A stretch of DNA of 64,000 nucleotides, from positions 1 to 64,000 of the forward strand of contig CAIUGM010000038.1 in assembly GCA_903898675.1 (NCBI GenBank), in the 5' to 3' direction. This document shows, in pieces, positions 3,438-59,142 of the stretch (positions are counted from its first letter, which is position 1; the number at the start of each line of letters is the position of its first letter). The DNA is from an uncultured Verrucomicrobiota bacterium (GTDB taxonomy: Bacteria; Verrucomicrobiota; Verrucomicrobiia; Opitutales; Opitutaceae). Below the pieces are notes generated by a model, which was given only the letters and a program-made list of their open reading frames with translations, was not told the origin of the DNA and made no database searches. Position numbers and translations under genes: made by a program.

Positions 3438-4979
3438 ATGGGATCGTTCTACATCACCACCGCCATCGACTACGTCAACGGGTCGCCCCACCTGGGCCAT
3501 GCCTACGAAAAGGTGCTGACGGACGTCATCGCCCGGTTCCGGCGGCAGCTGGGGGACCGGGTGCACTTCCTGACCGGCGTCGACGAGCACGGCCAGAAAG
3601 TCCAGGCCAGCGCCCGCCAGCGCGGCATCCCGCCCCAGCAGTTTGCCGACGAGGTGAGCGCCGAGTTTCGCGCCCTGCTGCCGAAGCTTTCCATCTCCAA
3701 CGACGACTTCATCCGCACCACCGAGGAGCGGCACAAGAAGGTCGTGCGCCAGGTGCTCCAGCAGCTCTTCGACAAGGGCGAGATCTACAAGGCGGAGTAC
3801 CAGGGGTTTTACTCGACCCGCCAGGAGCAGTTCCTGCAGGAGAAGGATCGCAACCCCGACGGCACCTGGCCGGAGATTTTCGGCGAGGTGACCGAAATCA
3901 CGGAATCGAACTATTTCTTCAAGCTGCGCCAGTACCAGGAGTGGCTGGTCGGGTTCCTGGCGGCGCACGAGGACTTCATCTTTCCGCGCTACCGCCAAAA
4001 GCAGGTACTGGAATTCCTGAAGGAACCGTTGAACGACCTCTGCATCTCGCGGCCGCGGGAGCGGCTGGAGTGGGGCATCCCGCTGCCGTTCGACGAGGCC
4101 TACGTCACCTACGTGTGGTTTGATGCGCTGCTGAACTACTATTCCGCCGTCGCGGACCAGCCCGGCGTCTGGCCGGCCGCCTGGCACGTCATCGGCAAGG
4201 ACATTTTGGTCCCGCCGCATGCCGTTTACTGGCCGATCATGCTGCACGCGGCCGGACTGCCGCTGCCCGGGGGCATCATCGCCCACGGCTGGTGGATGCA
4301 GAGTGGATCCAAGATGTCGAAGAGCACGGGCAACGCCCTCAACCCGCTGGACCTCGTCGCGGAGTTCGGTGCCGACGCCTTCCGCTATTTCCTGATCCGC
4401 GAGATGAACGTCGGCCAGGACAGCGACTTCACGCGCGAGCAGTTTCTCGTCCGCTACAACAGCGAACTTGCCAACAACCTTGGCAACCTGGTCAACCGGA
4501 CGCTCAACATGACGACACGCTTCGCCGCCGGCGTGGTGCCCGCGGCCGGCCCGGCGGAGGACCTGGAGCGGGCACTGCAGGACTTGTGGACGAAGACCCG
4601 CGACGAATTCATTCCGCTCTGCGAGGGCTTCCAGTTTCACACCGCGCTCGAGCGCGCGATGTTCTTCCTGACGGAGACCAACGCCTACATCGAGAAGCGG
4701 GCTCCGTGGAAGCTCGGCAAATCCGCCGCGCCGTCGGACCAGGCGCTGCTGCGCACCGCCCTGGCCACCATGGCCGAGGCGCTCCGGCTCGCGGTCGCGC
4801 TCATCCAACACGTCACGCCCGGGACCACGGAAAAAATCAATGCGGTCCTCGGCTACACCCCGGGCCCGGTCTGGCGCGAGGAACTCGTCTGGGGCACGAA
4901 GCTCACAGGTGCCACGGTCGCGCCGGCGCTGGTGCTTTTCCCGCGACCGGCCCCGCCGGCGGGGGAGAAGAAAGGGTAG
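3438..4979 (+). CDS. metG: Methionyl-tRNA synthetase
   Basis: A 513-residue class I aminoacyl-tRNA synthetase that charges tRNA-Met. The HIGH-type motif is seen near residue 20 (PHLGHAYEKVLTD) and the KMSKS motif near residue 290 (GSKMSKSTGN). The anticodon-binding helical domain follows. It is a short form that ends without the C-terminal tRNA-binding/dimerisation domain of E. coli MetG. The connective region has no CxxC knuckles, so it looks like a zinc-free form. The start ATG at 3438 agrees with the family N-terminus (MGSFYITTAIDYVNG). No Shine-Dalgarno is visible. Its TAG stop lies inside the palindromic repeat that separates it from menF. Confidence 0.97.
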   Translation: MGSFYITTAIDYVNGSPHLGHAYEKVLTDVIARFRRQLGDRVHFLTGVDEHGQKVQASARQRGIPPQQFADEVSAEFRALLPKLSISNDDFIRTTEERHKKVVRQVLQQLFDKGEIYKAEYQGFYSTRQEQFLQEKDRNPDGTWPEIFGEVTEITESNYFFKLRQYQEWLVGFLAAHEDFIFPRYRQKQVLEFLKEPLNDLCISRPRERLEWGIPLPFDEAYVTYVWFDALLNYYSAVADQPGVWPAAWHVIGKDILVPPHAVYWPIMLHAAGLPLPGGIIAHGWWMQSGSKMSKSTGNALNPLDLVAEFGADAFRYFLIREMNVGQDSDFTREQFLVRYNSELANNLGNLVNRTLNMTTRFAAGVVPAAGPAEDLERALQDLWTKTRDEFIPLCEGFQFHTALERAMFFLTETNAYIEKRAPWKLGKSAAPSDQALLRTALATMAEALRLAVALIQHVTPGTTEKINAVLGYTPGPVWREELVWGTKLTGATVAPALVLFPRPAPPAGEKKG

Positions 4980-5022: not shown

Positions 5023-5042
5023 CGCCACCAAACATCGCGCGC

Positions 5043-30888: not shown

Positions 30889-30959
30889 GTCATTCTGGGC
30901 GCAGCGAAGAATCCAGCATTACGCGGGAACTCTGGATCCTTCGCCTCGCTCAGGATGAC
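30889..30959. repeat. GTCATTCTG...AGGATGAC palindromic repeat, copy A
   Basis: Left arm GTCATTCTGGGCGCAGCGAA and right arm ending TCGCTCAGGATGAC pair at about 22 of 27 positions. The same family occurs at 51518-51603 and 52573-52658. A short GTGTAATCCGTGGTTAA tail lies just after it, before rsmI. Confidence 0.85.
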
Positions 30960-49142: not shown

Positions 49143-51491
49143 TCAAGCGCGGCTACCCGGTGTCTCTTCCGGCGGCGACAGGCGGTTGGCCATCTTTTTC
49201 CAGAAGAGCCAGCGCGCCAGCGCGGGCATCAGGAGCATCGCGCCAAGCATGTTGAAGAGAAACATGAAGGCGAGGAGCACCCCCATGTCGGCTTGGAACT
49301 TGATGGCCGAGAAGGCCCATGTACCTACGCCGATCGAGAGCGCGAAGCCGGTGAACACCACCGACGTGCCCATCGTGGCGAAGGACTCGCACAGCGCGTC
49401 CTCGAGGGATTTGCCGTCGCGGAGCCGCTCGAGCAGCGCCGAGCAGAGGTAGATGCCGTAGTCCACGCCGATGCCGACGCCGAGCGCGACGACGGGCAGC
49501 GTGGAAGTCTTCAGGCCGATCTGCAGGTAGACCATCAGCGCATAGGCCAGGTCGGACACGATCACGAGCGGCAGCACCACGCACACCGTGGCCCGCCACG
49601 AGCGGAAGGAGATCAGGCAGAGCACGACGATCGCGATGTACAGCCACATCACCATGGGAAATTGCGCGGACTCAACCACCTCGTTGGTGGCGGCCATCAC
49701 GCCGATGTTGCCGGTGGCGAGCTGGAACTTCACCCTGGGCGTCGATTCCCGGGCGCGGAATTCCTTCACGGCGGTGATGACGCGCCGGATCGTCCCGGCC
49801 TTGTGGTCCTTGAGGTAGATCATCACCGGGATGACGCTGCCGTCATTGTTCAACAGCCCCGTCGAGGTCTCGACCGGCGAGACCGACTGGGCGAGCGTCT
49901 GCGGATTGCGGGGCACGGTCCGCCACTTCAGGCTGCCCTCGTTCCAGCCGGCGGTGATCGTCTTGGCGAGATCGGTCAGGGCCATGGTGGACTGGACGCC
50001 CTCGATGTTGCGCATGTGCCAGCCGAACCGCTCCACGAGCGCCATGACGTCGTGGTCGATCACGCCGTTCGGCACCGTCTCGATCAACACCGTGATCACA
50101 TCGACGCCGATATTGAAACGCGAGGTGATGACGGCGGTGTCCTGGTTGTAGCGCGAAGACTGGCGGAGCTCGGGCACGCCGGCATGCGTGTCACCGATCT
50201 GCACCTGCCTGGCCTTGATCAGGCCGAACGCCCAGCACGCGCCGGCGATGGCGATGATAACGAGCGAGGTGCGGCCCGTCGTGAAACCCACTAGCCGGCG
50301 CCAGACGGGTTGCAACGCGAAGCGGCGGATATTAACCCGTTTGCGGAAGTCCGGCTCCATCGTCGTGTAAGCCAGCAGCACGGGCAGCAGGAAGCGGTCG
50401 GTCAGGATGATGAGCGTGACGCCCAGGCTGGCGGTGATGGCCAGCTCGCGGATGATGGGCACCTTGACGAGGTAGATGGTCAGGAACCCCACGGTGTCGG
50501 TCAGGATGGCGACGGTCCCGGGGATGAAGAGGTTGCTGAATGACGCCCGGGCGGCGAGCACCTCGTCCCGCCCGATGTAGTATTCATAGCGGAAGGAGCG
50601 CAGCATCTGGGTGGCATGGCTCAGCGCGATCGCAAACACCAGGAAAGGCACGAGGATCGAGAGCGGATCGATCCCGAAGCCGAAGAGGTTGAGCAGGCCG
50701 AGTTGCCAGACCACGGCGCAAGCCGAAGTGATCAGCGGCAGGATCGTGAGGATCAGTGACTGCGAAAAGTAGAAGAGCAGGAAGGCCGACACGATGATCG
50801 CCAGGCCGAAGAACAGCAGCACGCCGCGCGCGCCGTCGGTCACATCGCCAATGACCTTGGCAAAGCCGATGATATGCACGCTGACCAGGTCGGACTGGTA
50901 TTTCTGCCGGATCTTGCTCTCCAGAGCATCGGCGACCTCGGCATAGACGAGCTTCCGGCCGGTCTGCGGGTCGACCTCCAGCAGAGAAGCGACGATGATG
51001 GCGCCGGTGAAATCGTTCGCCACCAGCTGGCCGACGCGGCCGGACTTGATGATGTTCTGGCGGACGCGCTCAAGGCCCTCGGGCGTCGGCGAAAAGTCGG
51101 CCGGGATGACATTACCACCCTGGAGACCGTCCTCGACCACCTCCATGTAGCGGACATTCGGCGTATAAATCGAGGTCACCTGTGAGCGATCGACCCCCGG
51201 CAGATAAAATGTCTCGTCGGTGACGGCCTTCAGCGTGCGGAAGAACTCGGGCGTGAACATGTCCCCCTTGCGCGCCATGAGGGCGATGACGACGCGATTG
51301 GCGCCGCCGAACTGCTCCTGGTATTTCTTGAAGTTCTGGATGTACTCATGGTCGCCCGGCAGCTGCTTGTTGAAGCTGGCGTCAACGTGGGTCCGGGCCG
51401 CGAAGAACCCCAGCACCGCCGTGGTAAGTGCAAACAGCAGCACGGTCAGGTGACGGTGCCCGAAGATGAGTGCTTCGATGCGGGTTAGCAT
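49143..51491 (-). CDS. MMPL/RND-family exporter
   Basis: A 782-residue inner-membrane protein with about 12 helices in two halves, each with a large periplasmic loop after the first helix. MMPL-type hallmarks are LVFAIALSHATQMLRSFRYEY in the first half and VVALGVGIGVDYGIYLCSALLERLRDG in the second. The family exports lipids and hydrophobic compounds using the proton gradient. It closes the DUF1302-DUF1329-YCF48 set. The last residues (GSRA, stop TGA) are encoded by a repeat-like GTAGCCGCGCTTGAG sequence that also occurs (as its reverse complement) at 27552-27567. Confidence 0.9.
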   Translation of the reverse strand: MLTRIEALIFGHRHLTVLLFALTTAVLGFFAARTHVDASFNKQLPGDHEYIQNFKKYQEQFGGANRVVIALMARKGDMFTPEFFRTLKAVTDETFYLPGVDRSQVTSIYTPNVRYMEVVEDGLQGGNVIPADFSPTPEGLERVRQNIIKSGRVGQLVANDFTGAIIVASLLEVDPQTGRKLVYAEVADALESKIRQKYQSDLVSVHIIGFAKVIGDVTDGARGVLLFFGLAIIVSAFLLFYFSQSLILTILPLITSACAVVWQLGLLNLFGFGIDPLSILVPFLVFAIALSHATQMLRSFRYEYYIGRDEVLAARASFSNLFIPGTVAILTDTVGFLTIYLVKVPIIRELAITASLGVTLIILTDRFLLPVLLAYTTMEPDFRKRVNIRRFALQPVWRRLVGFTTGRTSLVIIAIAGACWAFGLIKARQVQIGDTHAGVPELRQSSRYNQDTAVITSRFNIGVDVITVLIETVPNGVIDHDVMALVERFGWHMRNIEGVQSTMALTDLAKTITAGWNEGSLKWRTVPRNPQTLAQSVSPVETSTGLLNNDGSVIPVMIYLKDHKAGTIRRVITAVKEFRARESTPRVKFQLATGNIGVMAATNEVVESAQFPMVMWLYIAIVVLCLISFRSWRATVCVVLPLVIVSDLAYALMVYLQIGLKTSTLPVVALGVGIGVDYGIYLCSALLERLRDGKSLEDALCESFATMGTSVVFTGFALSIGVGTWAFSAIKFQADMGVLLAFMFLFNMLGAMLLMPALARWLFWKKMANRLSPPEETPGSRA

Positions 51492-51517
51492 GGAGGGTAA
51501 CGCAAAATCTCGCGGCT

Positions 51518-51603
51518 GTCATTCTGAGCAGAGCGAAGAATCCACGGCAGCGAGCGTGGCACCAAGTTCGAGCACGTGGATCCTTCGCGTTGCTCAGGAT
51601 GAC
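51518..51603. repeat. GTCATTCTGAG...CAGGATGAC palindromic repeat, copy B
   Basis: Arms GTCATTCTGAGCAGAGCGAA and the reverse-complementary end TTGCTCAGGATGAC. It lies between the MMPL gene and the YCF48 gene, and the YCF48 stop follows 10 bp after it. Confidence 0.85.
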
Positions 51604-51612
51604 AAGGGTAGC

Positions 51613-52557
51613 TCATGGCAGCTTGATCCTCACCGCGCCGGCTTCGCCGACGGTGACCAGCCAGCCGTCCCCGGCCTCGACGACCTCGGCCACGCTGGTG
51701 CCGAAATCGGCCGGCTTCCAAGGGGTGAAGGTTCGCCCCGCATCGTGGCTGAGGAAAAAATTCCCGCCCTGGCCTGCGAGTACGATCGTGCCGTTACGCT
51801 GGCGGATGCCGGTCATGATCAGCACCCGCACCGGACTGTTCACCGGTTCCCAGGTGGCGCCGGCATCCTCCGAGCGCAGGATATGCCCGCGCAGGCCGTA
51901 GGTGAGGAGATGGCCCTTGGCCAGGGGCAGCGTGCCGAACAGCGAGCCGTCGTAAGGCACGATCAGTTTGCCCCAGGTTTTCCCCTCGTCATCGGAGTGC
52001 AGGAGTGTCCCGCTTTCGCCCGCCAGATAGAGCGTGCCGTCCGCTCCCGCGGAGATCCGGTTGTAATGGACTTCGTCCTCACTGGGCCGGGTGGTCAGCC
52101 AGTGCTGGCCGCCGTCCTCGGTTTTCAGGAATTTTCCGTAGGCGCCCGCGATGAAGCCGTGGCTGGCATCGCGAAAGAACACATCGAGATAGACCGACTC
52201 CAGCTCCTTGCCGTCATCTTGCCGGGACCACGTCAGGCCGCCGTCAAGGGTGGCCAGGATCACGCCATCATGGCCGACCGCCCAGCCATGCAACTTGTCG
52301 GGGAAGGCAACACCCGTGAGGAGGGCTCGCGCGGGTACGGACGCTTGCGTCCAGGTCAGGCCGTCGTCGCGCGAGATGACCACGTCGCCGTGATCACCCA
52401 CCGCCACCAGCTTGTCCCCGGCCTGAACCACGCTGAGCAGCAGGCTGCGGGCGGCCAGCGGGGCGGGCTCGGATGATTCCTGGGCGGGGAGAGGGACAGC
52501 GAAGGCGAGGGTGAGGAGCAGCCAATGAACCGGATATTGACGAAAGCCAGCCACCAC
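51613..52557 (-). CDS. YCF48-like beta-propeller protein, secreted
   Basis: About 314 residues from a GTG at 52557. A signal peptide (HWLLLTLAFAVPLPAQ) is followed by a beta-propeller of six BNR/Asp-box-like repeats of about 45 residues, for example VGDHGDVVISRDDGLTW, VGHDGVILATLDGGLTW and AGESGTLLHSDDEGKTW. This is the YCF48/photosystem II stability factor-like family, which in non-photosynthetic bacteria is often encoded beside RND exporters and DUF1302/DUF1329 genes. It would act in the periplasm. The ORF track runs upstream through repeat C, producing the known spurious peptide CHSERSEES. The start is uncertain because no ATG is present. Confidence 0.85.
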   Translation of the reverse strand: MVAGFRQYPVHWLLLTLAFAVPLPAQESSEPAPLAARSLLLSVVQAGDKLVAVGDHGDVVISRDDGLTWTQASVPARALLTGVAFPDKLHGWAVGHDGVILATLDGGLTWSRQDDGKELESVYLDVFFRDASHGFIAGAYGKFLKTEDGGQHWLTTRPSEDEVHYNRISAGADGTLYLAGESGTLLHSDDEGKTWGKLIVPYDGSLFGTLPLAKGHLLTYGLRGHILRSEDAGATWEPVNSPVRVLIMTGIRQRNGTIVLAGQGGNFFLSHDAGRTFTPWKPADFGTSVAEVVEAGDGWLVTVGEAGAVRIKLP

Positions 52558-52572
52558 ATGACCTGCCTGTCT

Positions 52573-52658
52573 GTGATTCTGAGCGCAGCGATGAATCCAC
52601 GCGCTCGCAGCTGACATCATCATCGATGCCGTGGATTCTTCACTTCGTTCAGAATGAC
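52573..52658. repeat. GTGATTCTGAG...CAGAATGAC palindromic repeat, copy C
   Basis: Arms GTGATTCTGAGCGCAGCGAT and TCACTTCGTTCAGAATGAC. With copy B it brackets the YCF48 gene. Confidence 0.85.
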
Positions 52659-52718
52659 AAGTCAGTGTGTACACATTCTTGATCATGAATTCTGCGCCTT
52701 GCACTGAAGCACAGGCAA

Positions 52719-52766: not shown

Positions 52767-54125
52767 TCAGCGGACGCCTTCCTGCCGCAGCGTGGAGGGC
52801 GTGTAGTCCTGGGGACTGCGCTTGATGCTGAAGTCGTACATCTTCGCCTCGTTGTCCAGGCCGATGGCCAGGTAGCGGCCGGCGATCAGGTCGGTGTGGA
52901 CCTCGAGCGTGCTCCAGAAAGTCTGGGCGTCGTAGTAGTTGATGCAATGCGCCTCGGATACGCGCCAGAGCTGGCCGCGGCCGTCGTACTGGTCGACCGC
53001 GAGAATCTGCCAGCTGTCCTCGTCGATATAGAAGGTCCGGCGGGAGTATACGTGGCTTGTGCCCGGCTTGAGCGTGGCATCCACGACCCAGACGCGGTGC
53101 AGCTCGTAGCGGGTGAGGTCCTGGTTGATGTGCAGCGGCTTGAGGATGTCGCTGTATTTCAATTTATCGCTGTGCAGCTTGTAGGAATTGTAGGGCACAT
53201 ACATTTCCTTTTTGCCGACGAGCTTCCAGTCGTAGCGGTCGGGCGCGCCGTTGAACATGTCGAACTGGTCGGATGTGCGCATGCCGTCGGCGGCGGTGCC
53301 GGGATTGTCGTAGGCGACATTCGGGGCGCGGCGGACCCGGCGCTGGCCGGTGTTGTAGATCCAGGCGCGACGGGCCTCCTTCACCTGGTCGAGGGTCTCA
53401 TGGACCACCAGAATGGAACCGGCGAGACGGGCCGGCGCGGTGACCGCCTGCTTGAAATACACCAGCACATTATCGAGATCCTTCTCCTGGATGCCCTCGC
53501 GGACGTAGTTGAAAAGAAACTCATCCTCGAAATCGACGAGGGTGTAGGTGCCGTTGCGCTGCGGCGCGGCCTGGCTGATGTAGCGGGCGGCGGCGATCCC
53601 CCGGTAACGCGTCAGGTGGTTCCAGATGACCTCAAGCCCGCTCTGCGGGATCGGGAAGGGAACACCGATGACCGTGCCCGTGATACCGTTGCCGCCGGGC
53701 GTCAGGGCCGCGGTGGCGGCATACTGTTTGGTCGCGTCGTAGATCCGCTGCGGATTCGAGGCACTGCGGTGCGTGGCATACACCGGCATCGTGTAGTCGG
53801 GGTAGGCCTTCATCAGGGCCACGTGACCGGCGCTGAGCTTGTCGGCGTACTTGTCGGCATTGGCCGCACTGATGGTGAAGAGCGGCTGGTCGTCCTTGAA
53901 CGGATCGGGATGGTGCATGCCGACCGTGTAGCCGGCCGGGGGCGTGGTGATGCCGCCGGTCCAGGCCGGAATGGAACCATCCGCATTGCCGGCCTTTTCG
54001 CCGCCGAGCGGGGTGAGGTCGTTGCCCAGGCGGCTGAGGTCGGCGGCCGAGAGGGCCGCTTGCGCGGTCAGGCCGAGGGTGAGGAGAGCGGAGCCCGCGA
54101 GAAAAAATCGAATACCTGATTTCAT
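52767..54125 (-). CDS. DUF1329 family envelope protein
   Basis: A 452-residue exported protein with a clear signal peptide (MKSGIRFFLAGSALLTLGL, cleaved near AQA). Typical DUF1329 features are LTPLGGEKAGNADGSIPAW near the N-terminus, PDYTMPVYATHRSA, VIGVPFPIPQSGLEVIWNHL and the C-terminal RRTFYIDEDSWQILAVDQYDGRGQLW. The fold is related to LolA/LolB-type lipid-binding proteins; it may carry a hydrophobic cargo across the periplasm (inference). It follows the DUF1302 gene by 20 bp in an operon ended by the terminator at 52719-52748. Confidence 0.93.
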   Translation of the reverse strand: MKSGIRFFLAGSALLTLGLTAQAALSAADLSRLGNDLTPLGGEKAGNADGSIPAWTGGITTPPAGYTVGMHHPDPFKDDQPLFTISAANADKYADKLSAGHVALMKAYPDYTMPVYATHRSASNPQRIYDATKQYAATAALTPGGNGITGTVIGVPFPIPQSGLEVIWNHLTRYRGIAAARYISQAAPQRNGTYTLVDFEDEFLFNYVREGIQEKDLDNVLVYFKQAVTAPARLAGSILVVHETLDQVKEARRAWIYNTGQRRVRRAPNVAYDNPGTAADGMRTSDQFDMFNGAPDRYDWKLVGKKEMYVPYNSYKLHSDKLKYSDILKPLHINQDLTRYELHRVWVVDATLKPGTSHVYSRRTFYIDEDSWQILAVDQYDGRGQLWRVSEAHCINYYDAQTFWSTLEVHTDLIAGRYLAIGLDNEAKMYDFSIKRSPQDYTPSTLRQEGVR

Positions 54126-54145: not shown

Positions 54146-56101
54146 TTAGAACGAGTACTTCAGGTTGCAGGAAACGTAATCGCGGTCGCCGAGCAGGTTG
54201 AAGCGACCGGCGCCGAAGAAGTTCACATAGCGGATGTCCAACGCCCAGGCGTTCTGGAAGGTGAACTCCGTGCCGATGGTGATCGTCTTGCGGCCGTGGA
54301 CAAAGTTGCCCATCGGGAGCGGCGTGTTGCCGGTGACGTCGTGCGAGAACGCGAGCAGCGGCGAGACGTTGATGCCGGCGAAGACATTGTTGTAGTCGAG
54401 GCGGCCGACCAGCTGGTAGCCCCAGGAGAAGCGATCGGCGAAGGCCGAGGCCGGGTCGGCGCCGGAGGCGGCATTGCCGGTGTTGATCATCTCGTTGATG
54501 TCGCCCGCGACAAAGGTGCCGGGGCCGTCGTAGCGCAGGGTGCCCTTGCCGGGCAGGCTGCTGACGTTGACGAAGCCGGTTTCGCCGAGGAGCGTGGTCT
54601 GCTGCGAGCCGAGGATGCCGCGGCCGGTCTAGGTGGCCGTCATCTGCCCGGTCGTCACCTTGTTCCGGCGGTAGCCCGGGATGTAGGTGTTAAGCCGGCC
54701 GAGGTAATTGCCGAGCTGGTTGTTCGGCCCGTAGGCGGGATTGAGGGACGAGAGCGCGGCGAAGAGCAGTTCCACGTCGTCGACCTGCAGCGGCTGGTTG
54801 TCGCGGTAGCTCAGCTCGCCCTGCAGCGCGATGCCGTGGATGCTCGTGTTGAAACTGGCGCCCACGAGGCCGATGTCCTTGGGGAACTCGATCTGGTAGC
54901 TGCCGGTGGCGGCGGCGGTCAGGAAGCCCGTGGTCTTGGCGCCGGTGGCGATGCTGGCGGCGGCCGGGTAGAAAGGCTGCAGGCTGGCCGGGAGAGCCGA
55001 GGCCGGCACGCCGGTCAGCGCGGCGCCCAGCAGGGTGCTGAGGGCCGTGCCGGAACCCGCGCCGAACACCGGGATGAGCGCGGGCAGCAGATTCGCACTG
55101 CCGAGGGAGATGGCGGTGCTCTGCACCAGGGCCGGGCTGACGGCGCTGGTCGGGGTGATCGCCGAGATCACCGGCAGCCGGCTGTGGTAATTCATGTAGT
55201 ACACGGCGAACTCGGTGTCGTTCAGGCCGTGGGCCAGATAGCGGAGGGTCACGCCATACTGGCCGGCGTTGCCCGGCTGGTGGTCGGTGCCGCGCTTGAT
55301 GGCGCCCAGGCCGCTGCTGTCCGGGATCGCCCCGAACCCGAGGTAAACCTTGGTACCGCCCTTTGCCACGAAATCATTCGTGCTGAAATAAGTGCCGGGC
55401 GGGTCCACGCGCGTGCGCTCCCAGGAGAGGAGATAGAAGCCCTCGAGCGTGAGGTCTTGCGAAACATTGAGCGAGCCGGAGATCATGTTGATCGGCAGGA
55501 GCGCCTCCTTTAACTCGGAACCGGGCGTCCGCAGCTTGGCCACGTCGATCGGGTTGATGGAATTGATGCCGTTCGGAATGAACGTGCTTTCGCCCCAGCT
55601 CAGCACCTGGCGGCCGACGCGGAGGGTAGCCGGCATGTCGCCGACGTTGTGCTTCAGGTAGACATAGGCGTCGAGCAGCTCGGCGTTGGTGCTCACGATG
55701 CTGTCGGCCTGGTCGCTCAGTGCGGTGCGCGCCCGCGTGCCGTTGGAGTTGACGAAATCGTTGAAGTAGAACCCGCGGACAAACAGGCCGGCGGTGTCAC
55801 GGTAGTTCACCTCCAGGTCATGGGACGCCTTCACGAGGAAGGACGCCATGCCGCGGCGGTAGTTCAGGTCGCCGTCGTCGGCATTGACGGAATGCTAGAG
55901 GCCGCCGCTGGCCAGGCCATAGAGCGCCGGGTCGGGATTGTTCAGGCGGTACAGGCCGCCGACGGAGATCGTCGTGTCGAAGCTGCCCTTGAAATCACCG
56001 GCCTCGAAGACAAACGCCCGGGAGGCGGTGGTCAGGGCAAGGGCGAGGACGGCAAGGACGGGACGACGCAGACACGGAGCGATAGCTTTGCTTAGGTTCA
56101 T
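54146..56101 (-). pseudogene. DUF1302 outer-membrane porin-like gene with two in-frame TAG codons
   Basis: One continuous frame of 651 codons, broken by TAG at 55897-55895 (after LYGLASGGL, before HSVNADDGDLNYRRG) and TAG at 54631-54629 (after QMTAT, before TGRGILGSQQTTLLGE). The sense parts are intact: a signal peptide, a DUF1302 beta-barrel body and a C-terminal NLKYSF with the terminal Phe typical of outer-membrane barrels. No frameshift is needed to join the three pieces. The later Met at 55849 lacks a signal, so restart there is unlikely to give a working porin. It may be a recent pseudogene, or a gene read by amber suppression. TAG is used as a normal stop elsewhere in this window. Confidence 0.85.
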
Positions 56102-56256: not shown

Positions 56257-59142
56257 GTGATAAGCCTTTTGACGCGCGCCCAAAAAGGACAACCTTGGGG
56301 AGGCTTGGACGCGGCCTCACACATCCATATCAAGGGCGCCCGCGAGCACAACCTGCGGGACCTGGAGCTGCGTATTCCCCGGGGCAAGCTCGTGGTGCTC
56401 ACCGGCCCCAGCGGTTCCGGCAAGTCATCGCTCGCCTTCGATACCATCTACGCCGAGGGCTACCGCAAATACATGGAGAGCCTTTCCGCGCAGGCGCGCC
56501 AGGTGCTCGAACAGCTCAAGCGGCCGGATGTCGATTTTATCCACGGTCTTTCGCCGGTGCTCGCCATCGAGCAGCGCACGGGGGGCGGCTCGCCGCGCAG
56601 CACCGTGGCCACGGTCACCGAGGTGGCGGACTACGCCCGGCTGCTCTGGGCGCTGTGCGGCGAGCAGCGCTGCCCGAAGGACGGCGGCCGCGTGGAAAAA
56701 CGCTCGCTCGACGACTGCGTGTCCCAGCTCCTGCGCGGCGCGCCCGGCGAGCGGGCGATCCTGCTGGCCCCGTGGATGACCGCCAAGCCCGCGGTGCTGC
56801 GCGATGAACTGCCGCGGCTCCGCCAGCGGGGTTTTCAACGCGTGCGGATTGCGGGCGAGATCAAGTCCCTGGATGAACCCAAGCTGTTGCCGAACGGCAG
56901 CAGCGAGCTGGTGGTGGAGCTGGTGGTCGACCGGGTGGTGCTCGCCCCCGAGCAGCGCAGCCGGCTGGCCGACTCGCTGGAGCTGGCCTTTCGCGAGGGA
57001 CAGAACCGGGCGATCGCGCTCGTGCAAAAAAATCCCGAGGCGCCCTGGCGGGAAATCCCGCTCAGCCAGAGCCTCAGTTGCGTGATCTGCGGCGACGTCT
57101 TTGAGCCACTCACGCCGCGGAATTTTTCCTTCAACCACAGCGAAGGCGCCTGCGCCGAGTGCGGCGGACTCGGCCGCAAGCTGACCTTCAGCGAGGAACT
57201 GATCGTGCCGAAACCGGAGAAGGCGGTGCGGGAGGGGGCGATCAAGCCGTGGCGCATCGGCGGCCGGAACCTCATCATCCGCCACAACTCGATCCTGAAG
57301 CAGCTGGCCGAGCAGCTGCCGTTCGACGCCGGGACACCGTGGCAGGACCTGCCGGAGGAAACGCGCCACGAATTGATGCACGGGGCGGGGGAACGCTTGT
57401 TCAGTTTTCGCCTGCGCCGCACCCAGAAATCCGAGTTGAAGACGTTTCCCGGGATCCTGGCCCTCCTCGACGCCAGCCGCCGGGAATCCCGGAGTGACGG
57501 CTTTCGCGCCCGGCTCTCCACGTACATGGCGAGCGGGGATTGTCCGTCGTGCCATGGCCTGCGCCTGAACGCCCGCAGCGCGGCGGTGTTGGTCGGCGGC
57601 CGGAGCTTTGCGGATTTCACCGCCCTCGACATCCGCCGGGCCCTTGACTTCACGCGGACCCTGCCCGGCGTGCTGCCGGCCACGGATGCCGTCGGCGAAG
57701 TGCTGGGCGGCGTCACGCAGCGGCTGCATTTCCTCACGGAAACCGGCCTGGGCTACCTGACGCTGGACCGTGAATATTCGTCCCTGTCCGGCGGCGAGGC
57801 GCAGCGCGTGCGCCTGGCCACCCAGCTGGGCATGGGGCTGGTCGGCGTCATCTACGTCCTGGATGAGCCCAGCATCGGCCTGCATCCCCACGACAATCAG
57901 CGGCTGCTCACCACGCTCCGGGAACTGCGCGACCGGGGCAACACGGTGCTCGTGGTGGAGCACGACGCGGACACGATCCGGATCGCCGATGAACTGATCG
58001 AGCTGGGACCCGGCGCCGGCACCGAGGGGGGGCAGATTTTGTTTCAAGGCACGCCCGCGGAATGCGCGAAGCTGCCGGTGTCAGTTTCCCGGATGGGCGC
58101 CTACCTCGCCGGCACGATGGGCGTGGTCAAGGACGCGAAGACCAAGCGGCCGGATGACCGCTGGCTGACCATCAAGGGCGCGACCGAACATAATTTGCGG
58201 AATGTCGAGGCGAGCTTCCCAGTGGGCCTGCTGAGCTGCGTCACGGGCGTGTCCGGCTCCGGCAAGAGTTCCCTGGTTAATGACATCCTCGCCACGGCCG
58301 CCGCGCGAAAGCTCAACGGCGCCAAGGCCCTGCCCGGACGGCATCGCGGCCTCACCGGGCTGGAGCACTTTGAAAAGGCCGTGCTGGTCGACCAGGAACC
58401 CATCGGCCGGAGTCCGCGCTCCAACCCGGCCACCTACGTCGGCCTGCTCGACCTGCTGCGCGATCTGTTTGCGCAGCTGCCCCTGGCCAAGGTGCGCGGC
58501 TACAAGGCGAGCCGGTTCAGTTTCAATGTGCGCGGCGGCCGGTGCGAGCGCTGCCAGGGCGACGGGCAGATCAAGCTCGACATGCAATTCATGGCCGACG
58601 CCTACGCGCCTTGCCCGAGCTGTGACGGCCGGCGGTTCAACCGCGAGACCCTCGAGGTGCGTTTCCACGGCCAGAACATCGCCGACGTGCTGGGGCTCAC
58701 CGTGCGCGAGGCAATGGAGCTTTTCCGGGCTATCCCCCGGATCATGGAGAAGCTGGCGACGCTCGAGGCCGTGGGGCTGGGTTACCTGCAGCTCGGCCAG
58801 TCCGCGACCACGCTCTCCGGTGGCGAAGCCCAGCGCATCAAGCTCTCCCTGGAGCTGAGCAAGCGCGAACAGGGTACCACCCTGTACATCCTCGACGAGC
58901 CTACGACCGGTTTGTACTGGACGGATATCCAACGGCTCATGGAGCTGTTGTTCAAGCTGCGCGACGCCGGCAACACCCTCGTGGTGATCGAGCATAACCT
59001 GGATGTGATCAAGTTGGCCGACTGGATCATCGACCTCGGACCGGGTGGCGGTCCCGATGGCGGCGAGATCGTGTATGCGGGGCCGGTGGCCGGACTGGCA
59101 AAGGAGCCGCGGTCGCTGACGGGCCGGGCGCTGGTGGGCTAG
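56257..59142 (+). CDS. uvrA: Excinuclease ABC subunit A
   Basis: A 961-residue double ABC ATPase for nucleotide excision repair. Two Walker A motifs ([19 protein letters not shown] near 50 and [14 protein letters not shown] near 665) and two signature loops ([13 protein letters not shown] and [13 protein letters not shown]) are present. Zinc modules are CVICG...CAEC and [15 protein letters not shown]...CPSC; the insertion domain is present, so it is the UvrB-binding class. The start is a GTG at 56257, chosen as the longest; a TTG at 56269 is possible. It is transcribed away from the DUF1302 gene. No LexA-like operator was recognised upstream. Confidence 0.95.

Follow-up and report, generated by a model that had tools for sequence, protein, structure and literature searches.

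The window analysed here, a 64,000-nt stretch of DNA from an uncultured environmental Verrucomicrobiota bacterium of the Opitutaceae (hereafter designated G000), carries on its (-) strand a cassette of four genes, the first of which encodes a DUF1302 protein, that is, an AmeA-like outer-membrane barrel protein (54146..56101; 651 codons followed by TAA), and is interrupted by two in-frame TAG codons. It is followed by the genes for a LolA-like DUF1329 protein resembling AmeB (52767..54125), an AmeC-like YCF48/BNR-repeat protein (51613..52476, the 5' limit being approximate), and an AmeD-like RND transporter of the MMPL/HAE3 type (49143..51491), all three of which are intact and constrained. A divergent uvrA-like gene (56257..59142, (+) strand) lies upstream, and the order of the cassette genes, including this neighbour, is kept in relatives. 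Both the full DUF1302 gene, in a profile search, and the DUF1329 gene proved to be single-copy in this genome. An Rfam search of the window gave no match, and a viral scan found no relatives.

The four components and their order are the same as those of AmeABCD, a tetrapartite RND system whose deletion lowers monoterpene tolerance in Castellaniella defragrans (PMC6394551), with the reservation that the MMPL protein, for which the HAE3 transporter family is the best NCBIfam model, scores below the cut-off of that model. In contrast to the system of C. defragrans, a member of the Betaproteobacteria, the cassette of this Verrucomicrobiota host is flanked by the uvrA-like gene rather than by monoterpene genes, and its outer-membrane gene is interrupted twice. 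In Pseudomonas putida, DUF1302 and DUF1329 proteins are required for growth on Tween20 and have been proposed to transport the substrate (PMC10866462); there too (PP_0765/PP_0766 with PP_2018/PP_2019) they are tied to a protein of the periplasm and a transporter of the efflux type, but the two gene pairs lie apart from each other and are intact. By analogy with these systems, of which hydrophobe export by AmeABCD is known from another species, C. defragrans (PMC6394551), the cassette may encode a four-protein hydrophobe transport or efflux system, with DUF1302 as its predicted outer-membrane part.

The two premature TAG codons in the DUF1302 gene are codon 69 (55895..55897, (-) strand) and codon 491 (54629..54631, (-) strand). 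The Pfam DUF1302 profile spans both of them in a single frame (positions 6–541 of 541; E = 1.2e-163), a strong coding signal flanks each on either side, and the frame is otherwise intact in comparison with homologues, so that the gene has an interrupted frame as in a pseudogene. These results bear out a previous interpretation made from the letters alone (the sequence-only reading), which had described two in-frame TAGs without a frameshift at these very coordinates next to an intact DUF1329 partner. The same reading had noted that each TAG is one base away from CAG. This is true of the codons themselves, but a former CAG at both sites is unsupported: homologues have mostly Gln (CAG/CAA) at codon 69, with some Ala or Leu, whereas at codon 491 they have Lys, Trp, Arg, Ala, and once Asn, but never Gln. 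The change from Gln to TAG at codon 69 is a C-to-T step, and TAG at codon 491 is reachable from Trp (G-to-A) or from Lys (A-to-T).

Comparison with relatives, the nearest of which shares about 72% protein identity and thus permits only a coarse timing of any loss, revealed that, G000 aside, every DUF1302 gene compared within the genus is open. At neither codon 69 nor codon 491 was a stop present in any relative compared, so that neither stop is conserved in the way that characterizes programmed readthrough, and there was no pattern of many further disruptions that would have indicated plain pseudogene decay. Among the full-length matches listed in an order-wide DUF1302 search, stops were present only in G000 and in one other genome, G286; the record L123, whose DNA is the same as that of L201/G286 throughout the 4.9 kb surrounding the gene, has a single TAG at a Lys site (about 5024–5026). 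A single TAA (about 4451–4453) occurs in the DUF1302 gene of the 'Candidatus Synoicihabitans palmerolidicus' record (L162), and one further DUF1302 gene is split in two pieces (G099). Stops elsewhere in the family are thus sporadic, and in the order-wide DUF1329 control none of the matches listed contained one. Moreover, one congener (G019; L030, about 1450–1810) has an in-frame fusion of the N-terminal part of DUF1302 with the final part of the RND gene, from which the DUF1329 and YCF48 genes in between have been lost, and the position of the DUF1302 start codon reads ATA instead of ATG. The family also has several genera in which certain species possess neither DUF1302 nor DUF1329. Together with the deletion in the congener, this distribution shows that the cassette is lost now and then and is dispensable.

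Both interruptions being TAG is the sole point in favor of this genome having reassigned TAG as a sense codon, a reading to which we give practically no credence. Release factor RF1 (373 aa) is intact, with its GGQ and PVT motifs kept and with prmC adjoining, and of the 106 sampled coding-like frames that reach 150 codons or more, 24, about a fifth, end in TAG, the two internal TAGs being counted in. None of the 40 tRNAs detected in the genome has a CUA anticodon, and the best match to PylS scored 26.5 bits against a cut-off of 178, far below it, as expected of related synthetases. We also looked for other interrupted genes in 264 kb, namely the window and ten stretches of 20 kb, these 200 kb outside the window having been picked without selection, and found no other case in which a stop within one gene is flanked on either side by strong coding signal. 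Since the ancestral residues differ between codons 69 and 491, no single amino acid assigned to TAG would suit both sites; likewise, TAG was not found at one residue type across genes in the 264-kb sample and the homologue alignment. General recoding is thereby ruled out as far as the tools can see, in agreement with the argument of the sequence-only reading against a wholesale code change, and its alternative that both ambers are read through by suppression, for which it had suggested a search for a suppressor tRNA, gains no support from the same tRNA, PylS, homologue, and ancestral-residue evidence. The finding does not alter how the genetic code of Opitutales is viewed.

Six other candidates for interrupted genes were read individually. 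Four of these are gene junctions, where a start lies a few codons past the stop or the next frame is a normal neighbour, and the remaining two are weak antisense-like frames. Outside these six, the window has two further low-scoring candidate frames, at 49816 (+) and 46975 (-).

The identity of the two stops is in itself unremarkable. Under three mutation spectra, TAG accounts for 67–74% of the possible nonsense steps in the DUF1302 gene, and hence both stops are expected to be TAG about half the time (~0.5). A lack of frameshifts is what one expects of young decay and would be slightly unusual for decay of long standing. That two stops lie in this gene and every other gene sampled is free of them fits a second stop that was free to arise after the first, and it argues against random sequence errors, which are unlikely to have struck twice in one gene that makes up about 1% of the sampled coding sequence when no gene is interrupted in the 200 kb outside the window. 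An error of assembly or base calling, or a consensus built from a mixture of strains, in which case one or both TAGs would be absent from the typical cell, is therefore an unlikely explanation, although it ranks second after recent loss. That many of the relatives are metagenome assemblies and that the dN/dS of the lineage is near background would be in keeping with it, whereas the completeness of the assembly (99.95%) and its contamination (0.66%) speak against it. A real polymorphism of the TAGs is possible.

Selection was analyzed with a codon model allowing a separate value for the G000 branch; as the branches are long and synonymous sites heavily changed, dN/dS provides only coarse timing. 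For DUF1302, the G000 branch had a dN/dS of 0.099 versus a background of 0.070 (2dlnL, 3.2), and with a second set of relatives the values were 0.091 versus 0.081 (2dlnL, 0.35). The likelihood profile of the branch falls by 2.3 lnL units when the ratio is fixed at 0.15 and by 42 units at 1.0, giving a 95% upper limit of about 0.14; the intact DUF1302 gene of another genome (G012) has 0.133, above the value for G000. With the branch value so near the background, neutral evolution can have covered no more than a short terminal stretch of the lineage, with a point estimate of about 3% of the branch and at most about 8%, if the neutral omega is 1. None of the partner genes displayed relaxation on the G000 branch, with 0.023 versus 0.053 for DUF1329, 0.022 versus 0.039 for the RND gene, and 0.046 versus 0.029, a difference that is not significant, for the YCF48 gene. 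At DUF1302 columns otherwise invariant in the genus, G000 has 12 private changes, codon 69 among them, versus 0 to 7 elsewhere, an excess that may be due to slightly relaxed selection or to the isolated placement of G000 in the tree.

This signal of purifying selection across the gene, the absent frameshift, and the constrained partner genes are also what would be seen if leaky amber readthrough kept full-length DUF1302 at a low level, possibly as expression control, as has been proposed in general for in-frame stops of bacterial genes (PMC7918605). However, dN/dS cannot by itself separate readthrough from recent loss, because most of it accumulated before the stops arose; with two leaky stops in series, the losses in yield would multiply; and the lack of a CUA anticodon among the tRNAs detected, the intact RF1, and the lack of a stop at either site in every relative compared point the same way. 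We therefore regard leaky readthrough as improbable, possible in principle though without positive evidence. Its more specific form, regulatory readthrough needing no suppressor tRNA, in which two leaky ambers in series throttle barrel production from a gene under selection, appears more improbable still. The cases treated in the same study resemble the present one in having a TAG within a gene whose dN/dS is still well below 1, but its focus was on stops shared by orthologues, whereas both TAGs here are private to G000; in-frame stops in bacterial genes were found there to be mostly transient, lasting about as long as polymorphisms do within populations (PMC7918605).

Collectively, the most likely explanation, ranked first, is a very recent, ordinary inactivation of DUF1302 by point mutation in a dispensable cassette, with alleles that are possibly still polymorphic. 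Recent inactivation had been one of the two options of the sequence-only reading, and it gains support from the lineage dN/dS barely above background and from the dispensability of the cassette in a congener. Against it stand the two stops without any frameshift and the unrelaxed DUF1329 and RND genes. Presumably, one nonsense mutation hit the first gene of the AmeABCD-like cassette and ended its translation, and a second, in either order, would have followed without selective cost. The stop at codon 69 would leave the signal peptide and about 40 residues, from which no outer-membrane barrel could form, and products of internal restarts would be without the signal peptide; no DUF1302 protein would then be made, and the alleles may have become fixed. 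With the other three genes intact, G000 would have either a cassette minus its outer-membrane part or the start of cassette loss. The finding is ordinary, of modest value as a clear view of gene loss at an early stage, with two stops, almost no other decay, and a cassette deleted outright in a congener; it illustrates that a frameshift-free gene with two identical stops can mimic recoding and yet be ordinary.

Several minor observations were made on the genes of the cassette and their surroundings. DUF1302 evolves faster than DUF1329 in all pairs. In the DUF1302 tree, G000 forms a lone deep branch of the genus, and in the weakly resolved DUF1329 tree it falls inside a subset of the genus, a discordance attributable to either recombination or weak resolution. 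The YCF48 gene is flanked, in the spaces separating it from its cassette neighbours, by two copies (71% identical) of a palindromic repeat of about 90 bases (51516–51606 and 52571–52661). With its inverted-repeat arms, this is a probable REP-like element, and a core resembling it occurs at 30903–30916.
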